Shown here one piece after another: positions 4,870 through 13,645 of a DNA stretch of 64,000 nucleotides. Source of the DNA: an uncultured Cycloclasticus sp. (GTDB lineage Bacteria > Pseudomonadota > Gammaproteobacteria > Methylococcales > Cycloclasticaceae); assembly GCA_913060865.1 (NCBI GenBank), contig CAJXTU010000002.1:62001-126000 (forward strand), written 5' to 3'. The position numbers and the translations under genes are program-made. Numbering within the stretch: position 1 is the stretch's first letter; every line of letters starts with the position of its first letter. The notes beneath the pieces were generated by a model, which saw nothing but the letters and a program-made list of their open reading frames with translations, ran no database searches and had not been told where the DNA came from.

Positions 4870-4950
4870 ACATAACAAAAAAATCAAGTCGTTCGCTATG
4901 CTCACTGGGACGCGCAAAGAGACGCGCGCGTCTTACTTAAAACGTTATGT
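4870..4950 (+). other. attC-like site 2 (integron cassette recombination site)
   Basis: The outer cores ACATAAC and GTTATGT are exact reverse complements. Inside are TCAAGTCG near the left and TTACTTAAAAC near the right (AAGT/ACTT pairing), and a central GACGCGC ... GCGCGTC stem. It directly abuts the DUF2335 stop codon on the left, and its right core contains the stop codon of the minus-strand toxin gene. Confidence 0.65.
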
Positions 4951-5205
4951 GCCGTAATGGTATCGGAGCTGTGCAATTAGAATAGTGTCATATTGATGTT
5001 TATAAACGATCCTATGTTCATCGTTTATACGCCGTGACCAATATCCAGATAATCCATGCTTTAAAGGTTCAGGTTTGCCAATACCTTCTTGAGGAGTTCT
5101 TTGGATATTTTTAATGAGTAAATTAATACGTTTAAGTATTTTTTTGTCGGTGGTTTGCCAGTAAAGGTATTCTTCCCAAGCTTTTGTTGAAAATGTTAAC
5201 TTCAC
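4945..5205 (-). CDS. yoeB: YoeB/Txe family mRNA interferase toxin
   Basis: 86 aa, the family length. Residues Glu46, Arg65, His83 and Tyr84 fall at the same positions as the catalytic residues of E. coli YoeB, so the toxin looks active. Family members cut mRNA in the ribosomal A site. Translation starts with GTG, which overlaps the antitoxin stop (GTGA), ensuring coupling. The stop codon lies inside the right core of attC-like site 2, and the pair runs opposite to the other cassette gene. It is probably retained as a stabilising or addictive cassette (inference). Confidence 0.93.
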   Translation of the reverse strand: MKLTFSTKAWEEYLYWQTTDKKILKRINLLIKNIQRTPQEGIGKPEPLKHGLSGYWSRRINDEHRIVYKHQYDTILIAQLRYHYGT

Positions 5206-5453
5206 TCAATAAGCTCTCTTTCAGTTCCGTTACCAGTTTCAAGCTCGGCCATGGATTCTAAAAGGCTTCTAGCATTTGCAGGGGATCTTAGTAAATATGT
5301 AGTTTCCTGCATGGCGTTATAATCTTCTAACGACATCATAACAACAGGATCTTCACTTTTACGTGTAATAATAATTGGTGCGTGATCATTACAGACACGC
5401 GCCATTGTCTTTGCTAAATTTGCTCTAGCAGCGGTATAACTTATTGCATCCAT
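5202..5453 (-). CDS. yefM: YefM/Phd family antitoxin
   Basis: Antitoxin that neutralises YoeB and represses its own promoter by the N-terminal DNA-binding fold. I chose the ATG at 5453 (MDAISYTAARANLAKTM, 83 aa) rather than the longer ORF-track start because GGAG stands 6 bases before it and the family begins at this point. The DNA-binding half has the expected pattern (AARANLAKTMARVCNDHAPIIITRK) and the middle VVMMSLEDYNAMQET is classic YefM. The C-terminal half, rich in Glu and Ser, is the toxin-binding tail. Confidence 0.92.
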   Translation of the reverse strand: MDAISYTAARANLAKTMARVCNDHAPIIITRKSEDPVVMMSLEDYNAMQETTYLLRSPANARSLLESMAELETGNGTERELIE

Positions 5454-5506
5454 GTGGAACTCCAAAGTGTTCATGTACATTAATTGGTACATCATAGCGT
5501 ATTGGC

Positions 5507-6209: not shown

Positions 6210-6284
6210 ATGAAATGGGAAACACCAACATATAAAGATTTACGTTTCGGTTTTGAAGTAACGATGTACATCTATAACCGATAG
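6210..6284 (+). CDS. pqqA: PQQ precursor peptide PqqA
   Basis: A 24-residue peptide absent from the ORF track: MKWETPTYKDLRFGFEVTMY followed by IYNR. Glu16 and Tyr20 form the invariant E-x3-Y pair that PqqE crosslinks in the first step of pyrroloquinoline quinone synthesis. An AGGAGA ribosome site lies 7 bases before the ATG. The leader binds PqqD before processing. It has its own -10 element and a strong terminator, and sits 7.6 kb upstream of pqqBCDE with an opposite-strand envelope cluster and an IS relic between. High local expression of the peptide relative to the enzymes is plausible. Confidence 0.97.
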   Translation: MKWETPTYKDLRFGFEVTMYIYNR

Positions 6285-6294
6285 ATAAAAATTT

Positions 6295-6333
6295 TCATTA
6301 AAAAGGGCTCCTATTAAGAGCCCTTTTTAATGA
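6295..6333. terminator. Strong terminator after pqqA, probably bidirectional
   Basis: A perfect 16-bp stem (TCATTAAAAAGGGCTC / GAGCCCTTTTTAATGA) with a 7-base loop. It has A tracts on the left and T tracts on the right, so it can end both pqqA (plus) and the lpoB transcript (minus), whose stop codon lies about 20 bases away. Confidence 0.9.
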
Positions 6334-6354
6334 AATAAACTAAATAAATTTATG

Positions 6355-6888
6355 TTATAAAAAACTTCTTTTACCCTTTGCCAACGTTAGCAAGCCGGAC
6401 CACTGCCCCTTCATTTCACCATCTAAAGTCATCATTTTTAATTCTAATTTATAACCAACAAGCTGTTGCCCATTAGAACCAAATTGACGATTAGACGATA
6501 ATTCAGAACGTACAACATAGTCGAAACTTGTCGCCGATGTATCGACCAACCTTAACAACCCAGAGTTCAGTAATGTTTCGGTAATGCGATCATAAATATC
6601 TTGCATCCTTATACTTTCATTATCTGTATTATTTCTTAATTTAGCCAAAATCAGTCGGGGCCTCTTATTGCCCCATGTTTGTACCAGGCTGGAAGATAGC
6701 ATTTTATTAGTTACCGTTTCTGCCAGCTCAGTATAATCAGCCATAGTTAGTTCAGCAGATAGGTGCCCTTTTTCACCCGACCCCACTATTGACACATTCG
6801 ACTGGCCTCCAGTTATAAGAGGGTTAGTCTGGCAGGCAGACAGAACAGCCGCTACCGCTAATAAGGTTGAAATTTTTAAAGTTTTCAT
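6355..6888 (-). CDS. lpoB: Penicillin-binding protein activator LpoB
   Basis: Outer-membrane lipoprotein that reaches through the periplasm to stimulate the PBP1b peptidoglycan synthase. 177 aa. The signal peptide ends at a lipobox (VLSAC, Cys19). The core follows the LpoB pattern: MADYTELAETVTNKMLSSSLVQ, RPRLILAKLRNNTDNESIRMQDIYDRITETLLNSGLLRLVD, then a terminal strand with GQWSGLLTLAKGKRSFL. The linker after the Cys is short. It is the last gene of a five-gene minus-strand cluster and follows ycfL, the same pairing as in enterobacteria. AGGAT precedes the ATG. Confidence 0.93.
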   Translation of the reverse strand: MKTLKISTLLAVAAVLSACQTNPLITGGQSNVSIVGSGEKGHLSAELTMADYTELAETVTNKMLSSSLVQTWGNKRPRLILAKLRNNTDNESIRMQDIYDRITETLLNSGLLRLVDTSATSFDYVVRSELSSNRQFGSNGQQLVGYKLELKMMTLDGEMKGQWSGLLTLAKGKRSFL

Positions 6889-6938
6889 AAATATCCTATT
6901 TATTTAGTCTGAAGTTTTAGTCAAAATTGAGCATCACT

Positions 6939-7397
6939 TTATCGGTCAGGGTTGCTTTTTTCTTGGTGAATAAAGAAATCATCAGGTAATCTAACAGTCA
7001 TCGTTAAGGTGTATGCCTGAGGTGTGACTCCAAGTGTTTGGAAACTTTTTATTTCCCTTGGGCCTAAGCTAAAACGCTTCCAAACTGTATTTTGGTTTAT
7101 GCTGAAGCCTTGTTGATCCTCCCAAGAGTACATGTATTCCAATGAATAACGGTTATTAGATAAATTTTGCACTGATACCTCTGCGCGCTGAAGCTGGCCC
7201 ACTGAACCAAAACGAACATCAACTAGATCTATCTTTCCAACCAAGTCTTTTGAGCCAGCAATCAATCGAGCACGTGCGTGCGCTGTACTAACTGTATTTT
7301 GCTGATGATTTCGAACAGTCGGGTGTTGCCCAATACTGTCAACAGTATTACACGCTGTTAAGAAAATACAGCCTATCAATATACATATAGTTTTCAT
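6939..7397 (-). CDS. ycfL: YcfL family lipoprotein (DUF1425)
   Basis: 152-aa putative outer-membrane lipoprotein. I placed the start at 7397 because this ATG overlaps the upstream stop as ATGA and gives a normal signal peptide MKTICILIGCIFLTAC with a LTAC lipobox. The mature part has a beta-sandwich look (VDVRFGSVGQLQRAEVSVQNLSNNRYSLEYMYSWEDQQGF, then PREIKSFQTLGVTPQAYTLTMTVR), as in YcfL. The precise role is not established, and the conserved linkage with lpoB suggests cell-wall synthesis. A break of about 50 bases separates it from lpoB. Confidence 0.85.
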   Translation of the reverse strand: MKTICILIGCIFLTACNTVDSIGQHPTVRNHQQNTVSTAHARARLIAGSKDLVGKIDLVDVRFGSVGQLQRAEVSVQNLSNNRYSLEYMYSWEDQQGFSINQNTVWKRFSLGPREIKSFQTLGVTPQAYTLTMTVRLPDDFFIHQEKSNPDR

Positions 7398-8977
7398 TTC
7401 ACTTTCACCCACATTTTGTCACTACTAGCCGTATATAACGTTTTATTTAACGATCTTGCATAAACGATATTATGACTACCTTTATCAATCTTGACGAGCT
7501 TACTGCTCAGACGTTTACCTTGCCTATTATAAGTGGCGATTTTAATCTGCGAAACAGACTTAGGGACGTAAAATCGTGCAGCCATTAATCTTGATGGTAA
7601 TGTTGTCCAAGAACGCGTATCAGGGTGGACCATTTTATCCCGTTCAGATTTCACCTTATTAACCAACGAACCAAAAACTCCTGCACTTTGCGCAGCTTGA
7701 TTCCAGGCATGCCCTTCGACAACATTACGTATAACCGTCGTCATCATACGTAATTGTGCTAATGGCCCTGCTTCTTTTTGATGGCGCAACGCTAAAGCCG
7801 TAATATCGGCTACTTCAGAGAGTCTAGCCCAACGTTTACCAGTCGATGTTTGTGCCTCAATACGATATACCTGAGAGTCTACTGCCTCATAAATAGGTAA
7901 CTCAATAATTGTTGGCGGCCCAAACCCCAAGCTAAGGTCAAATTTCAGAAGTTTTTTCTCGGGTGCAAAACCATCGCCTGCGATAACATGAACCAAACGA
8001 CGCTCCGTAGACGCGGGCTTTTTAATGTCCTTAATAGCTTGTTTAATAACATCACTTTTAGGATTAAGCTCAAGCGCCTTTTTGTAGGATATTCGAGCAT
8101 TATCTCTAAGACTTCTATCTTCATAGCTATCCAGCTCTTGTACTACGCCTGCAACATAAAAACCGAATGGATTAACAAATGCGCTGGCTACTTTAGATGC
8201 TTGCTTATTAGAGCCTTTGTATTGATTTTTTATTATTGAACCAAAACCAACATTTGCCAGCTCGGCTCCTTTTTCTTTTTGCTCTTTTTCCTCTTTAGCT
8301 ATTTCTTTTTTCGCTTCACGAATTTTCTCATCAAATGCTTCTTTTTCCATGTTTTGTAAATCAATCGCTCGCCGTGTCACGTTATACGCATTACGGTCAC
8401 CTTCTAGCAGGTAGGCTATCGACTTGTAATTAAGCATCAAGACACGTTCAAAACCAACACCTGGATACTCACCCAACTCTTCATTGCCACTGATTGTTGA
8501 GACACCCGCAGATCCTAAACCTGATAAGAAGCTTGAAACACTACCCCTCTCTTTTTTAGCCACTTGAGATCTTTCTGCACTGGAAAAACTTGCTTGGGCC
8601 AACGTCACATCTTCTGCATCCAGCGCCATCAGCCCCAGCTCTAAATTAGCCAACAAATCAAGTTTATTTGGATCCGTAATACCTTTTTGGCGTAATTTAA
8701 TCGCTTGCTCAACCTCTCCAGATGAAATCATATTTTTAATGGCTAACATATCTCTTGTATAGCCTTCGTAAGCAACCTTTCTATTGGAGCTTACCCCTGC
8801 CTTCAATGAAGCAGGCTTTGTCGCAACACTTTTTTCTGTTGTATTTTTTACCGCAGCGTCACCTACTGCACTCACCGCTTTTGAAAATGACGATAATGCA
8901 TCAAAAGCAAACAAGCTTGTAGAAAAGCAAGCCATACAGATAATAAAAATACGAATTATTAATTTATTAGAATTCAT
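7394..8977 (-). CDS. COG3014 family protein, exported, TPR-like
   Basis: 527 aa with a Sec signal peptide (cleavage probably after SLFA). A Cys just before it (CMAC) is a poor lipobox match. The middle (about 55-330) is helical and TPR-like: FERVLMLNYKSIAYLLEGDRNAYNVTRRAIDLQNMEKEAF, a highly charged KEIAKEEKEQKEKGAE coiled segment, then DNARISYKKALELNPKSDVIKQA. The C-terminal 180 residues are predicted mostly beta and contain AGDGFAPEKK and IELPIYEAV typical of COG3014 proteins. The family is uncharacterised, and I know it from clusters with YcfL, LpoB and CsgG-like genes. It overlaps ycfL by ATGA, so the two are translationally coupled. Confidence 0.85.
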   Translation of the reverse strand: MNSNKLIIRIFIICMACFSTSLFAFDALSSFSKAVSAVGDAAVKNTTEKSVATKPASLKAGVSSNRKVAYEGYTRDMLAIKNMISSGEVEQAIKLRQKGITDPNKLDLLANLELGLMALDAEDVTLAQASFSSAERSQVAKKERGSVSSFLSGLGSAGVSTISGNEELGEYPGVGFERVLMLNYKSIAYLLEGDRNAYNVTRRAIDLQNMEKEAFDEKIREAKKEIAKEEKEQKEKGAELANVGFGSIIKNQYKGSNKQASKVASAFVNPFGFYVAGVVQELDSYEDRSLRDNARISYKKALELNPKSDVIKQAIKDIKKPASTERRLVHVIAGDGFAPEKKLLKFDLSLGFGPPTIIELPIYEAVDSQVYRIEAQTSTGKRWARLSEVADITALALRHQKEAGPLAQLRMMTTVIRNVVEGHAWNQAAQSAGVFGSLVNKVKSERDKMVHPDTRSWTTLPSRLMAARFYVPKSVSQIKIATYNRQGKRLSSKLVKIDKGSHNIVYARSLNKTLYTASSDKMWVKVK

Positions 8978-9000
8978 AACGATTTGCTGGCTCTCTGAAA

Positions 9001-11496
9001 TTAGAAATTTGGCCGTCTAACGGCGGGGGCTGGCTTGCTTTCAGCTTGTTTTTCTCGACGCCCTATGGGGACTAACTCACCTTTTTGACGAGCCGATAAA
9101 TCATCACTGATTTGAGTCGCTATTTCAGTTGTTAACAGGTCCAACAAATCATTTACTGCAAGCGCATGACTATCTACTTTCTTAATCCTTTCATTAACCC
9201 TCACCTTAATAGCACTAGTTAAACGGCCAGAATGGACATCAATTAATCGAACACCAGCCTCCACCGTACCAAAGTAACGTATTTGAATCTCATTGGTATA
9301 AGGCACTTCTTTTCTTTCTGTACGAATCAGAAAATCATCAATAGCAGCATGAATAAGGTAGTCAGCACCCTTCAATTCGGTTAGCGTACTGTCAGGTGCT
9401 GAACCCGCTGCAATCGAAGTAAACGCTTTTTCATCCAAAATCTGATCAATCTCCTTACGCTCCATAATATCGAACTCTGGAAATTGTGATAATTTAATCA
9501 TCAAATCATTGGTAATACGCGCATCATTAATCCCCACTAATTGCTGGTTATTACCGCGAGGATTTATTTTAATTTTCCCTACCGCTAACGTCAGCACCTT
9601 CCCGTCATTCTTTGTCGCATCACCACCCGTACGTTGTGGAGCTATTGATGCCAACCCTTGCTGACTAAGCCGACCTTTAGAGCGCTCCTGTCGCTTTAAA
9701 ATATCACCTGTTAACAAAGCGATTCCATTTACCGCTACTTTTGAGCGAGCATCCTCTACCTCAGTTAACTCAACAGTACCTAGCTCTGCTTCTGCCACAC
9801 CTAGTTGAACACCTGTATCTGGGTCAATGATCGCTTCGCCTGGGCGAACGGCACGAAGTTTTTCACCAACAGATAAACCACCATCGGTACCTCTATTGAT
9901 GTAAGCAACACCTGACACAATAGCAGCCACCTTGATAGGGTATATGGCATTCATTAAATTAACAGTAACCTGGTCAGCAAATGTATCTGCAAGCTCAGAA
10001 ATAATCCTAGTATCAGAGCCCGTTTTCTCTACCGATTGACTCACAGAAATTTTACGTGACTCCATAATATCGCCAGTGCGTGCATCAACAATACGCATAT
10101 TGCCGTCAATATGTCCTGCCTGTGATACAAACGTACGAGAAGAACCCGGCAAACGGGCTGTTCGCTCTTCTATCGTAAAACTAGCAACACTCCCAATAGC
10201 AATATAATCAGCACCTTTTAACTGGCCCATCGCTGACACCATATCTCGGTTCTCTGCCATCGCCTGTGCTAACTGCTCATTAATCAATTGGTCGGTTTCT
10301 TGGCGGTCAATTAATTGAAAGCGTTTAGTTTGTGCTAAACGAGAAATTAAAGTGTCAGTAAAAGCGGGTATGTGTAAATTAGCATCAATACCCGTCGAAG
10401 CCGTAGAATGAGCTTTAACAAGGCCAACAGCTAAACGAGGCCGCTGAGCAGACTTACCCTCTATATTTGAACCTCTATGTAACGAAGGTGCCGTTTTTCC
10501 AGATACTAAACTGCTTTCTTTTTTCTGAGCTATAGCTAAATCATCGACTTTAAAATCACCTTCAACTACTGAGAGAACGGAGAACGTTTTCTGAACCTGG
10601 CTTACTTTAGCCAGGCCAACCTTTTTGCGTAATTTGCCAATTGAAATGCCCGAAGCATCTTTAATGTCTTTGCCCTCACGAGAAACCGTATAGAAATCAC
10701 CAACGGTGACTTGCTCATTACTACCCCGGTTCACAACCCAGGGGTCGGCGCTAATTATTTGCGCTGGAAAAATCATATCCAATACACTAACCGCCGCTTG
10801 CTGACCAAGGTGATCAAACATTGAATATTCATCCTGCGTAGGTTCTTTTCCTGTAAACGCAGTTTCAGAAATTTTAGTACGAAGACTATCAGCACCAATG
10901 ATACGCCCCGTAACTGTAGCTATAACTCGCAAACGTAAGCGTGCATCCACCTGATTTTTAATCACTACGCGATGGCTATCACTGAATGGAACCGCTGTCT
11001 TTTTTAGTGAACCCGTTTGCTTCTCAAGCACAGCATAAACAATATAATCTGCACCAACAGCTGTACCCAGATTCTTAAATTCTTTAAGGCGATCATTATG
11101 ATCTGCTGCAGAACTTGCTGCAGCTATTGTCCAACCATTAACATCCGCTAAATTATCGACCGTTTCCTCGATCACCTTATCCAGGTCTGACTCTTTTGTA
11201 TCTGCACCAAATTGTTGCTCACGGATAACATGACGCAACGCACTACGTTCTACAATATCAAAACGTTTAGTCCCCGATAGTTGCTCAATTAAGCGCGCAG
11301 CCAAACCATCTGGCAAAGTACGAATATTCCCTTGAACTGTACGGTCAGGGTGAAAGTCTCCTTGACCCATGACGGCAATTTTTACTTTATTTTTCTGTTG
11401 TTGTAACGTTTCAGGTGACGCCAGTAATAGTTGGCTAACTAACAACAACATTAATCCTGTTGTTACAAAAAAGGTGTTTTTCTTCAATCCATTCAT
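9001..11496 (-). CDS. Exported protein with three tandem CsgG-like domains
   Basis: 831 aa, signal peptide MNGLKKNTFFVTTGLMLLLVSQLLLAS and no lipobox. Three copies of a CsgG/LpoB-type module can be aligned by eye: LIEQLSGTKRFDIVERSALRHVIREQQF, LISRLAQTKRFQLIDRQETDQLINEQLA and LMIKLSQFPEFDIMERKEIDQILDEKAF, each followed by a GADYI(V/A/H) strand. Copies one and two are followed by a small beta domain (VNRGSNEQVTVGDFY and INRGTDGGLSVGEKL ... IIDPDTG), which resembles the C-terminal domain of FlgT. The third copy lacks it. AGGAAGG precedes the ATG. Single CsgG domains form pores or scaffolds at the outer membrane, but a triple version has no assigned role that I know of. Confidence 0.8.
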   Translation of the reverse strand: MNGLKKNTFFVTTGLMLLLVSQLLLASPETLQQQKNKVKIAVMGQGDFHPDRTVQGNIRTLPDGLAARLIEQLSGTKRFDIVERSALRHVIREQQFGADTKESDLDKVIEETVDNLADVNGWTIAAASSAADHNDRLKEFKNLGTAVGADYIVYAVLEKQTGSLKKTAVPFSDSHRVVIKNQVDARLRLRVIATVTGRIIGADSLRTKISETAFTGKEPTQDEYSMFDHLGQQAAVSVLDMIFPAQIISADPWVVNRGSNEQVTVGDFYTVSREGKDIKDASGISIGKLRKKVGLAKVSQVQKTFSVLSVVEGDFKVDDLAIAQKKESSLVSGKTAPSLHRGSNIEGKSAQRPRLAVGLVKAHSTASTGIDANLHIPAFTDTLISRLAQTKRFQLIDRQETDQLINEQLAQAMAENRDMVSAMGQLKGADYIAIGSVASFTIEERTARLPGSSRTFVSQAGHIDGNMRIVDARTGDIMESRKISVSQSVEKTGSDTRIISELADTFADQVTVNLMNAIYPIKVAAIVSGVAYINRGTDGGLSVGEKLRAVRPGEAIIDPDTGVQLGVAEAELGTVELTEVEDARSKVAVNGIALLTGDILKRQERSKGRLSQQGLASIAPQRTGGDATKNDGKVLTLAVGKIKINPRGNNQQLVGINDARITNDLMIKLSQFPEFDIMERKEIDQILDEKAFTSIAAGSAPDSTLTELKGADYLIHAAIDDFLIRTERKEVPYTNEIQIRYFGTVEAGVRLIDVHSGRLTSAIKVRVNERIKKVDSHALAVNDLLDLLTTEIATQISDDLSARQKGELVPIGRREKQAESKPAPAVRRPNF

Positions 11497-11514
11497 AACT
11501 ACTGCCTTCCTAGT

Positions 11515-12420
11515 CTATTGTGGTTTACGGACAATATCGCCTACTCCAATCGGGGCGTTTTCTGGGTCTTCCTCAGAAACGATTGCTCCATAGCTTGCTT
11601 TGGGATTAATTCTAACAATTTCAATTGTTCCAACAAACTCCTCACCAGAACCAAGAGACTCGCCTGTATCAGGGTCAATTAATTCTTCACCTGCAAAAAA
11701 CACTTCATATTTTTGACCTTTTTTCAGACCACCATCTTTACCGCGATTAATAATGACTTGATTTTTACGTGTTCGCTTAACGACTTTCATAGGGTAAACA
11801 GCATCAACAAATTGGTCGGCCAAATTCGCCGACACCTCTTTTGCCATTTTTGTAAAGTGCGTGTTATTGGGCACCCCACTCTTGCCATTCACAATGATTG
11901 ATTTTGTTGCAAATGAGCTTTTAAGGTCGAAAGTTGATACCACCTGCCCCGACGCCGTATCGACCATCTGAGCTGTTAGGTGAATTAAACCAGAGTCTTG
12001 TCGTTTGTACTTATCATCAAAATTTGGTAGTGCTTTATGAGAACGATAAAACTTGAAGTTTTGTACCTTCGGCAAAATAAGATAGTGTGCATTAGACATT
12101 GCCCCTGTTGTCGCGGCATCGCCTTTGGCTAGATCAGATTCGGCAAACTTTTGCTCTTCCCTAATGTCAGCCATCACTTCTTTATTGCGGCTCAGTACTC
12201 GAAACTTTCTTGTATTACGGAACGAACTTTCCAACTCAGCCCAAAGCAACTCTAAATTCAGGTGTTTGCGGGAGTACTTACTGACTTTTTCACCAACTTT
12301 AGGCTCTTTAATAGCCACAGCAGGCTGATCAGCCGCCAAAACATTTTGCGTAAAAAGACAAGCCAATAAGGCAACAAAAACAAGCGGTAAAAAAAAGACT
12401 TTTTTTATCAACGTAACCAT
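11515..12420 (-). CDS. Exported CsgG-like protein with FlgT-C-like domain
   Basis: About 301 aa from the ATG at 12420. The ORF track runs 16 codons further upstream, and a TTG eight bases inside is also possible given GGGG spacing. The signal peptide ends near VLA-ADQPA. An internal LLAC could alternatively serve as a lipobox. The body carries one CsgG module (LLWAELESSFRNTRKFRVLSRNKEVMADIREEQKF, then NAHYLILPKV) and one INRGKDGGLKKGQKYEVFFAGEELIDPDTGESLG domain, clearly paralogous to domain 2 of the 831-aa neighbour. It is the first gene of the cluster and lies 18 bases before it, so co-transcription is likely. Confidence 0.8.
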   Translation of the reverse strand: MVTLIKKVFFLPLVFVALLACLFTQNVLAADQPAVAIKEPKVGEKVSKYSRKHLNLELLWAELESSFRNTRKFRVLSRNKEVMADIREEQKFAESDLAKGDAATTGAMSNAHYLILPKVQNFKFYRSHKALPNFDDKYKRQDSGLIHLTAQMVDTASGQVVSTFDLKSSFATKSIIVNGKSGVPNNTHFTKMAKEVSANLADQFVDAVYPMKVVKRTRKNQVIINRGKDGGLKKGQKYEVFFAGEELIDPDTGESLGSGEEFVGTIEIVRINPKASYGAIVSEEDPENAPIGVGDIVRKPQ

Positions 12421-12719
12421 CCCCAGAATGTAAGTTAGTAAGTAACAAAACAACGGACGAATAGCCAACCAATTAAAAAAAACCTTACCTCTCTATACAA
12501 AAAAATCCGTAAATTAAGGCTTCAACAAGCAACAAATTCATCCATGAGCTCATGAGAATACCAGATAAAAATATGTTGTCAACACATTGGATTAGCCATC
12601 AGCATAACACCCAAATCATGGCGCTCAACTGTTAAAGTTTCGCATGCTAAAACCATTTACTCCACAGCCAGACTTGTTCGTTTCAAGCGCAAATCTTAAC
12701 CATCCTGCTCTACATGCGC
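12421..12719. other. Leader of the CsgG-like cluster and junction DNA
   Basis: About 300 bases between the first envelope gene and the transposase relic. No credible gene is present. The small ORFs called here on both strands have no recognisable motifs. The promoter for the minus-strand cluster must lie here or just upstream, but I cannot pick one with confidence. Confidence 0.4.
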
Positions 12720-13645
12720 TTGATAATACTGATTCTTTCTTGATTGGCCACCGGTTGAACAGATATCTATTTAATTTACCCTTCAAACACAGTGCATCCA
12801 AGCCATCCGCTGCCAACATTGTTTCGCAGTTTGCTGCTGGGGATGCGGTATCGTTTGTCCGACGTTCAGCTGGCTCAGTGCCTACACAGAGACTTATTGA
12901 TTCGCAAGTTTTGTCACCTTAAACTTGGCACGACCGTTCCGGAGGCATCAACGTTAGGCTAATTTAGCAATAAACTGGTCGGGCATAACTTATGCTATCA
13001 AGTATTGCGTGAGATCAATCGTCAGTTTGAGGCCAAGAACATCATTATGACCGAAGGGCGAATCAATATTATCAACACCACACCGATAGAAACCGCTCAA
13101 TCAGGGCGAGGCATAAGCAAAGATACGCACGTAAAGTGATATTCAAAGGCTGGATGGTCTACAAAAAAGACAGTCGTGACCGAACTAAACCTAGTTCGCC
13201 TTCTCCGTTCATACTAGGGTAGATGAAGATGGTTTTATTCACCTTTGAAAAATCACCTCTGGTAATGTCCATAATAGCTAGGAACGAGACACTCTACTGC
13301 TTGGTGGCGGGGCTGCTTTATATGCGGATGCCGCCTACAGCTCAGAAGAAACGCGAGACACGTTGAAACGCTGTAATATTGACATTTAGGTTCAACGTAA
13401 AGAACTGCGAATAAAGGCCATCATGTCCGCATTGCGGTCACACGTGCAGGCGGTGAACGTCCCTTTGCAACATATAAGCGACACACTCGGTTCACATAGG
13501 GCTTGCTAAAAATATCACCGCCTACGATATCGCTGTGATGGCATTGAATACTCGTAAAAGTACGACATTTCTAGAGTTGTATGGCTTAATTGATTCGACT
13601 AACCAGGATAGATGCGTCTATAGCACATAGAAAAGCCAGAAAATG
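12720..13645 (+). pseudogene. Decayed IS5-family transposase
   Basis: Pieces of one transposase can be read across several frames with at least three in-frame stops and several shifts. In order they are: RLSDVQLAQCLHRDLLIRKF; TVPEASTLG, a stop, then FSNKLVGHNL; LREINRQFEAKNIIMTEGRINII; HTRVDEDGFIH; ALYADAAYSSEETRDTL; VQRK; and NKGHHVRIAVTRAGGERPF followed by ATYKRHTRFT, a stop, GLLKN and ITAYDIAVMALNTRKSTTFLELYGLI. These are the DDE-type (RNase H fold) blocks of an IS5-family enzyme. I could not find its terminal inverted repeats. It stands between the CsgG-like cluster and pqqB and may have taken part in separating pqqA from pqqB. Confidence 0.85.

Follow-up and report, generated by a model that had tools for sequence, protein, structure and literature searches.

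The CsgG/LpoB/TolB-N fold belongs to a ring-forming superfamily, and is also found in proteins that form no rings. PelC and GNA1162 are single-module lipoproteins encoded in other operons than the one described here. The H-ring of Vibrio is composed of FlgT, FlgO and FlgP (PMC7990780). In Helicobacter, the LpoB homologue HP1457 is reported to be syntenic with the lipoprotein HP0018, a partner different from those considered below (PMC11394524).

We analysed a window of 64,000 nucleotides from an uncultured Cycloclasticus sp., where five minus-strand genes at 6355-12420 form one transcription-unit-like block with a strong terminator at its end (Table 1). The open reading frames on which the first-pass annotation had based its proposal are real. 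They are transcribed in the order csg1, csg3, COG3014-type gene, ycfL and lpoB-like; csg1 and csg3 are separated by 18 bases, csg3 and the COG3014-type gene by 23, ycfL and lpoB-like by 50, while the COG3014-type gene and ycfL overlap, as they do in many five-gene relatives. A GTG start at 7412 for ycfL, which gives overlap with the upstream gene, is common to relatives. The five genes thus read as one putative transcription unit. Promoter-like sites upstream of csg1 are no more frequent than in shuffled sequences and represent a consensus match only; the terminator-like hairpin also lies downstream of pqqA on the opposite strand. Near the island, at 4945-5495, there is a small gene pair that looks, as judged by eye, like a RelE/YefM-type toxin-antitoxin.

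Table 1. Features of the five-gene locus and its borders (positions in the window)
Feature	Position	Strand	Basis
csg1, exported, 301 aa, one CsgG/FlgT_M-like module and one FlgT_C-like domain	11515..12420	-	ORF, Pfam, TsaP match
csg1 CsgG-type module (approximate)	11791..12237	-	
csg1 FlgT_C-like domain (INRG...GEELIDPDTG)	11521..11784	-	
csg3, exported, 831 aa, three CsgG-type modules with two FlgT_C-like domains in between	9001..11496	-	
csg3 CsgG/FlgT_M-type module 1 (residues ~36-243)	10768..11391	-	
csg3 FlgT_C-like domain 1 (residues ~246-323)	10528..10761	-	
csg3 CsgG-type module 2 (residues ~354-518), best CsgG match of the three	9943..10437	-	
csg3 FlgT_C-like domain 2 (residues ~521-602, YINRG...IIDPDTG)	9691..9936	-	
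csg3 CsgG-type module 3 (residues ~635-804), no subsequent FlgT_C domain	9085..9594	-	
COG3014-type exported protein, 527 aa, N-terminal TPR-like helices and beta domain with long helical insert	7394..8977	-	
ycfL, DUF1425 lipoprotein, lipobox LTAC	6939..7397	-	
lpoB-like lipoprotein, 177 aa, lipobox LSAC, without middle segment of LpoB	6355..6888	-	
Promoter-like site, TTGACA-16-TATTCT, extended -10, upstream of csg1	12555..12582	-	consensus match only
Terminator-like hairpin, strong, 20 pairs, 3' of lpoB-like	6293..6335	-	
pqqA, left border of insertion	6210..6284	+	
Degraded transposase-like remnant, right border of insertion	12960..13620	+	frame-broken translations; IS5-type by eye

The architecture of csg3 appears to be tandem FlgT-like, its repeat unit being nearer to FlgT (M and C domains) than to the CsgG pore. 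Profile search with CsgG, LpoB and FlgT_C models, which the first-pass annotation had proposed, detects the expected modules. In Pfam, csg3 matches CsgG (PF03783) over three stretches (1e-27, 97.2 bits against a cut-off of 20.8), then FlgT_M (3e-6, 27.8 bits against 31.2) and FlgT_C (4e-6, 27.5 against 27) in that order, and gives a cross-match to LpoB too. The three modules claimed for the 831-aa protein are therefore sound, and the single one claimed for csg1 is weak, scoring marginally for CsgG (3e-4, 20.6 bits against 20.8); a csg1 relative reaches 3e-12. The proposed resemblance to the FlgT C-terminus is recovered in both proteins, marginally in csg1 (1e-5, 26.2 bits against 27), and Pfam found no FlgT_N domain in either. 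Both signatures described earlier occur once per csg3 module, KRFDIVER, KRFQLIDR and EFDIMER at residues 77, 391 and 674 and GADYI, GADYI and GADYL at 148, 428 and 710. In one homologue of csg3 (L019:2912-5818), a third FlgT_C domain, absent in the window protein, follows module 3 at the C-terminus, so the ancestral plan may have been three CsgG-FlgT_C units.

Single-protein phmmer comparison with PDB gave weak matches or none. An AlphaFold model of csg3 based on nine homologues shows a threefold-repeated pattern of helices and long strands; its quality is modest (pLDDT 65.9, pTM 0.36), so that domain-level matches alone count. Its closest PDB folds are FlgT (3w1e, 7.6e-12) and the LPHT ring (8z5n, 1.4e-11), followed by the CsgG pre-pore, GNA1162 and the PelC dodecamer. 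The window csg3 has no lipobox cysteine, and relatives do not conserve a cysteine present in the signal peptide of csg1. Directly upstream of csg1 in a Victivallales locus, an LpoB/CsgG-type domain is fused to an FGE-sulfatase (formylglycine enzyme-like) domain (L030:4150-6198).

The remaining three genes encode a 527-aa protein, which we take to be COG3014, and two lipoproteins. No Pfam or NCBIfam family matched the 527-aa protein; its model (pLDDT 76) combines TPR-like helices with a beta domain, and fold search returned generic TPR matches only. One COG3014-type protein carries an inserted PG_binding_1 domain (L019:5892-7760, 9.7e-20). Presence of YcfL between COG3014 and LpoB was correctly recognised (PF07233 DUF1425, 8e-14, 51.7 bits against a cut-off of 28.3). 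The last gene does belong to the LpoB family as proposed (PF13036, 2.5e-9, 37.6 bits against 22.3) and carries a lipobox, but its product is divergent and shortened: about 21% identical to E. coli LpoB, it has an incomplete globular domain, a middle segment being absent, and scores 48.5 bits against the cut-off of 110.55 of the equivalog TIGR02722. Consequently, of the "five related folds" postulated for the cluster, what stands is five CsgG/LpoB-type modules distributed over three proteins, COG3014 and YcfL having other folds. COG3014 apart, all parts of the cluster belong to known families or resemble them.

Is this gene set conserved? COG3014 occurs in 54 of 369 genomes of the class and LpoB in 71; of the 54, 51 also carry LpoB, where 10.4 would be expected (Fisher p=3e-42, a value overstated since related genomes are not independent), a co-occurrence far beyond chance. 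In 46 of these 51 the two genes lie less than 5 kb apart, and the linkage spans many families. Among the ten genomes with the best csg1-type matches, eight contain COG3014 (p=5e-6) and one further has LpoB about 2 kb away. In a search of plasmids, the 831-aa protein was not found, and the one record with COG3014 was an Aeromonas sequence of chromosome size.

Mapping the neighbourhoods of 74 loci revealed several variants of gene order. The complete csg1-csg3-COG3014-YcfL-LpoB order is found again in about ten more loci, besides contig-truncated cases, and the conserved operon-like set of exported proteins suggested earlier is thus upheld. Simpler versions are much more widespread: csg1-COG3014-YcfL-LpoB in Methyloprofundus, Bathymodiolus symbionts and others, and COG3014-YcfL-LpoB in other loci, including Aeromonas caviae. 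In many loci LpoB-COG3014 lies between LPP20 lipoproteins, the only informative recurrent neighbours; these (PF02169; L076-L114) accompany LpoB-COG3014 in many Gammaproteobacteria, often one per side. COG3014 appears to be a lipoprotein in the four-gene type, whereas in the five-gene type its signal seems to be of the ordinary Sec kind, as if csg3 or other lipoproteins stood in for its anchor.

We tentatively propose, with a probability of roughly 0.45, that the cluster encodes a horizontally acquired, periplasmic, outer-membrane-anchored scaffold resembling an H-ring without flagellar function. Here csg1 and csg3, soluble FlgT-like proteins built of CsgG/FlgT_M and FlgT_C units in alternation, would form oligomers by way of the CsgG/PelC/FlgT fold, COG3014 would serve as hub or peptidoglycan contact by means of its TPR part, and the YcfL and LpoB-like lipoproteins would tether the complex to the outer membrane at its inner face. 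The LpoB-like protein might possibly contact the UB2H domain of PBP1b. The analysis shows which genes make up the set, their linkage, their domain families and, as read from the sequence, their export signals, and makes horizontal acquisition most likely; that the proteins assemble, form a ring, are anchored and influence peptidoglycan synthesis is our inference.

The best surviving alternative, which we nevertheless consider unlikely, is a device for activation of peptidoglycan synthase, in which COG3014, together with the CsgG-like proteins, adjusts the action of an LpoB-type PBP1b activator, in growth or envelope stress, and no ring is formed. No partner accompanies COG3014 more constantly than LpoB, in E. 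coli the genes ycfL and lpoB are adjacent in the same order and both detected by cluster-derived profiles, and the PG_binding_1 insertion mentioned above fits as well. The genome also encodes a PBP1b with UB2H domain (G000:C8:95901-96155, 4.6e-25), and its best LpoB candidate is that of the cluster. However, this candidate has lost a middle segment of LpoB and falls well short of the equivalog cut-off; the tie to peptidoglycan synthesis suggested by the first-pass annotation is therefore conjectural. Moreover, UB2H PBP1b is not enriched with the cluster (40/54 against 210/315 genomes, p=0.35; UB2H and FlgH counts among COG3014 genomes were tallied by hand from match listings), and another genome of the genus (G013) has UB2H PBP1b and no LpoB.

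Across the class, UB2H PBP1b scores above the cut-off in 250 of 369 genomes, so that most UB2H domains are without a recognised LpoB partner (250 against 71 genomes).

It is improbable that the CsgG-like proteins form a curli-like channel for secretion or export across the outer membrane. Both sequence and structure matches to CsgG would agree with such a channel, as would the first membrane-hairpin segment, similar in length to that of E. coli CsgG. In csg3, however, the second-hairpin segment falls short of it by about 15-20 residues in every module (csg1 is less clear), and its loss makes a curli-type channel unlikely. Profile matches to CsgG chains in PDB end at CsgG residue 178, csg3 has no lipobox, and no CsgE, CsgF or amyloid-subunit-like genes were recognised alongside the cluster.

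There is equally little to commend the idea that the cluster serves the flagellar motor as an accessory scaffold, in the manner of an alternative H-ring. FlgT is the top structural match, the window genome is FlgH-positive and contains no other FlgT_C protein, and FlgH is enriched in COG3014 genomes (39/54 against 158/315, p=0.003). Yet FlgH is absent in 15 of these 54, so the cluster is not a flagellar part in general, and a flagella-specific role was rejected as general explanation. Furthermore, G013 possesses FlgH and no cluster, relatives include Bathymodiolus gill symbionts, and the cluster is not near flagellar genes, FlgH of the window genome lying on another contig.

The genomic position of the cluster bears on the horizontal origin included in our preferred scaffold reading. 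Elsewhere in the genus, several genomes have moeB-like, pqqA and pqqB close together, with a pqqA-pqqB gap of only tens of bases; in the window, pqqA and pqqB (13895) are separated by about 7.6 kb containing the operon. The operon occupies the same site in a close relative (G001), and the window retains transposase-like debris there. Only 3 of 18 same-genus genomes compared, the window's own included, carry the cluster, which is thus accessory. In a quick COG3014 tree, loci of the five-gene type group in a single clade, which has a long branch and full SH-aLRT support; one of its members, a contig-truncated locus, is mislabelled. Records in this clade are labelled Gammaproteobacteria, Rhodocyclaceae, Deltaproteobacteria, Chloroflexota and Verrucomicrobiota, some of which may be binning errors because most are metagenome bins; the two same-genus copies, in G001 and G006, are not sisters. 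The tree, empty sites and sparse presence in the genus together indicate that the operon is most likely a horizontally acquired island between pqqA and pqqB. This conclusion draws on empty sites in relatives and not on composition, as the GC content of the cluster (41.3% against 42.4% for the window) bears no transfer signal.

A different insert of about 13 kb occupies the pqqA/pqqB site in another genome of the genus (G004, L148:2485-15456), marking an integration hot spot; its apparent products are a PP2C phosphatase, FHA proteins, a Ser/Thr kinase, trypsin-like proteases and a two-component pair.

It is very improbable that the cluster is a selfish or defence-like island with envelope proteins that affect entry of phage or toxin: the insertion with its transposase-like remnant, the second insert at the same site and the patchy distribution would suit it, but Pfam and NCBIfam show no nuclease, toxin or sensor domain in the five genes and the same core is located elsewhere without recurrent mobile neighbours.

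In the open-access literature searched, neither the five-gene assembly nor the name COG3014 was found, in agreement with the earlier claim that the cluster had not been described as a system. COG3014 and LpoB are present together in about one seventh of sampled genomes of the class, and now that its gene set is defined and its partners have names, the orphan COG3014 family becomes a testable envelope system. This bears on how H-ring proteins originated and on why UB2H PBP1b so far outnumbers recognised LpoB. A broader proposal, rather doubtful at present, is that COG3014 forms the core of a widespread undescribed ring system of outer membrane and cell wall, a non-flagellar cousin of the H-ring whose outer-membrane collar would be coupled to peptidoglycan synthesis through an LpoB-type contact.

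Among known systems, CsgG of the curli channel is of the same Pfam family and core fold as the CsgG-like proteins of the cluster, which differ by missing the second membrane hairpin, by csg3 having no lipobox and by the absence of recognised curli genes alongside. TsaP, a type IV pilus secretin partner with LysM and FlgT_C-like domains, resembles the C-terminal domain of csg1 (6ve2, 8.7e-11), but in csg1 no LysM was detected and no secretin was recognised alongside. PelC and GNA1162 have their core fold in common with csg3. The E. coli ycfL-lpoB pair, unlike the cluster, has no COG3014 or CsgG-like gene beside it. The Vibrio H-ring set differs in that no LPP20 protein, the family to which we presume FlgP belongs, was found in the window genome, and the cluster shows tandem repetition, has COG3014, YcfL and LpoB as partners and is not linked to flagella. 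What the H-ring and the cluster appear to share is a CsgG-like middle domain followed by FlgT_C, in a soluble periplasmic protein that stands alongside outer-membrane lipoproteins.
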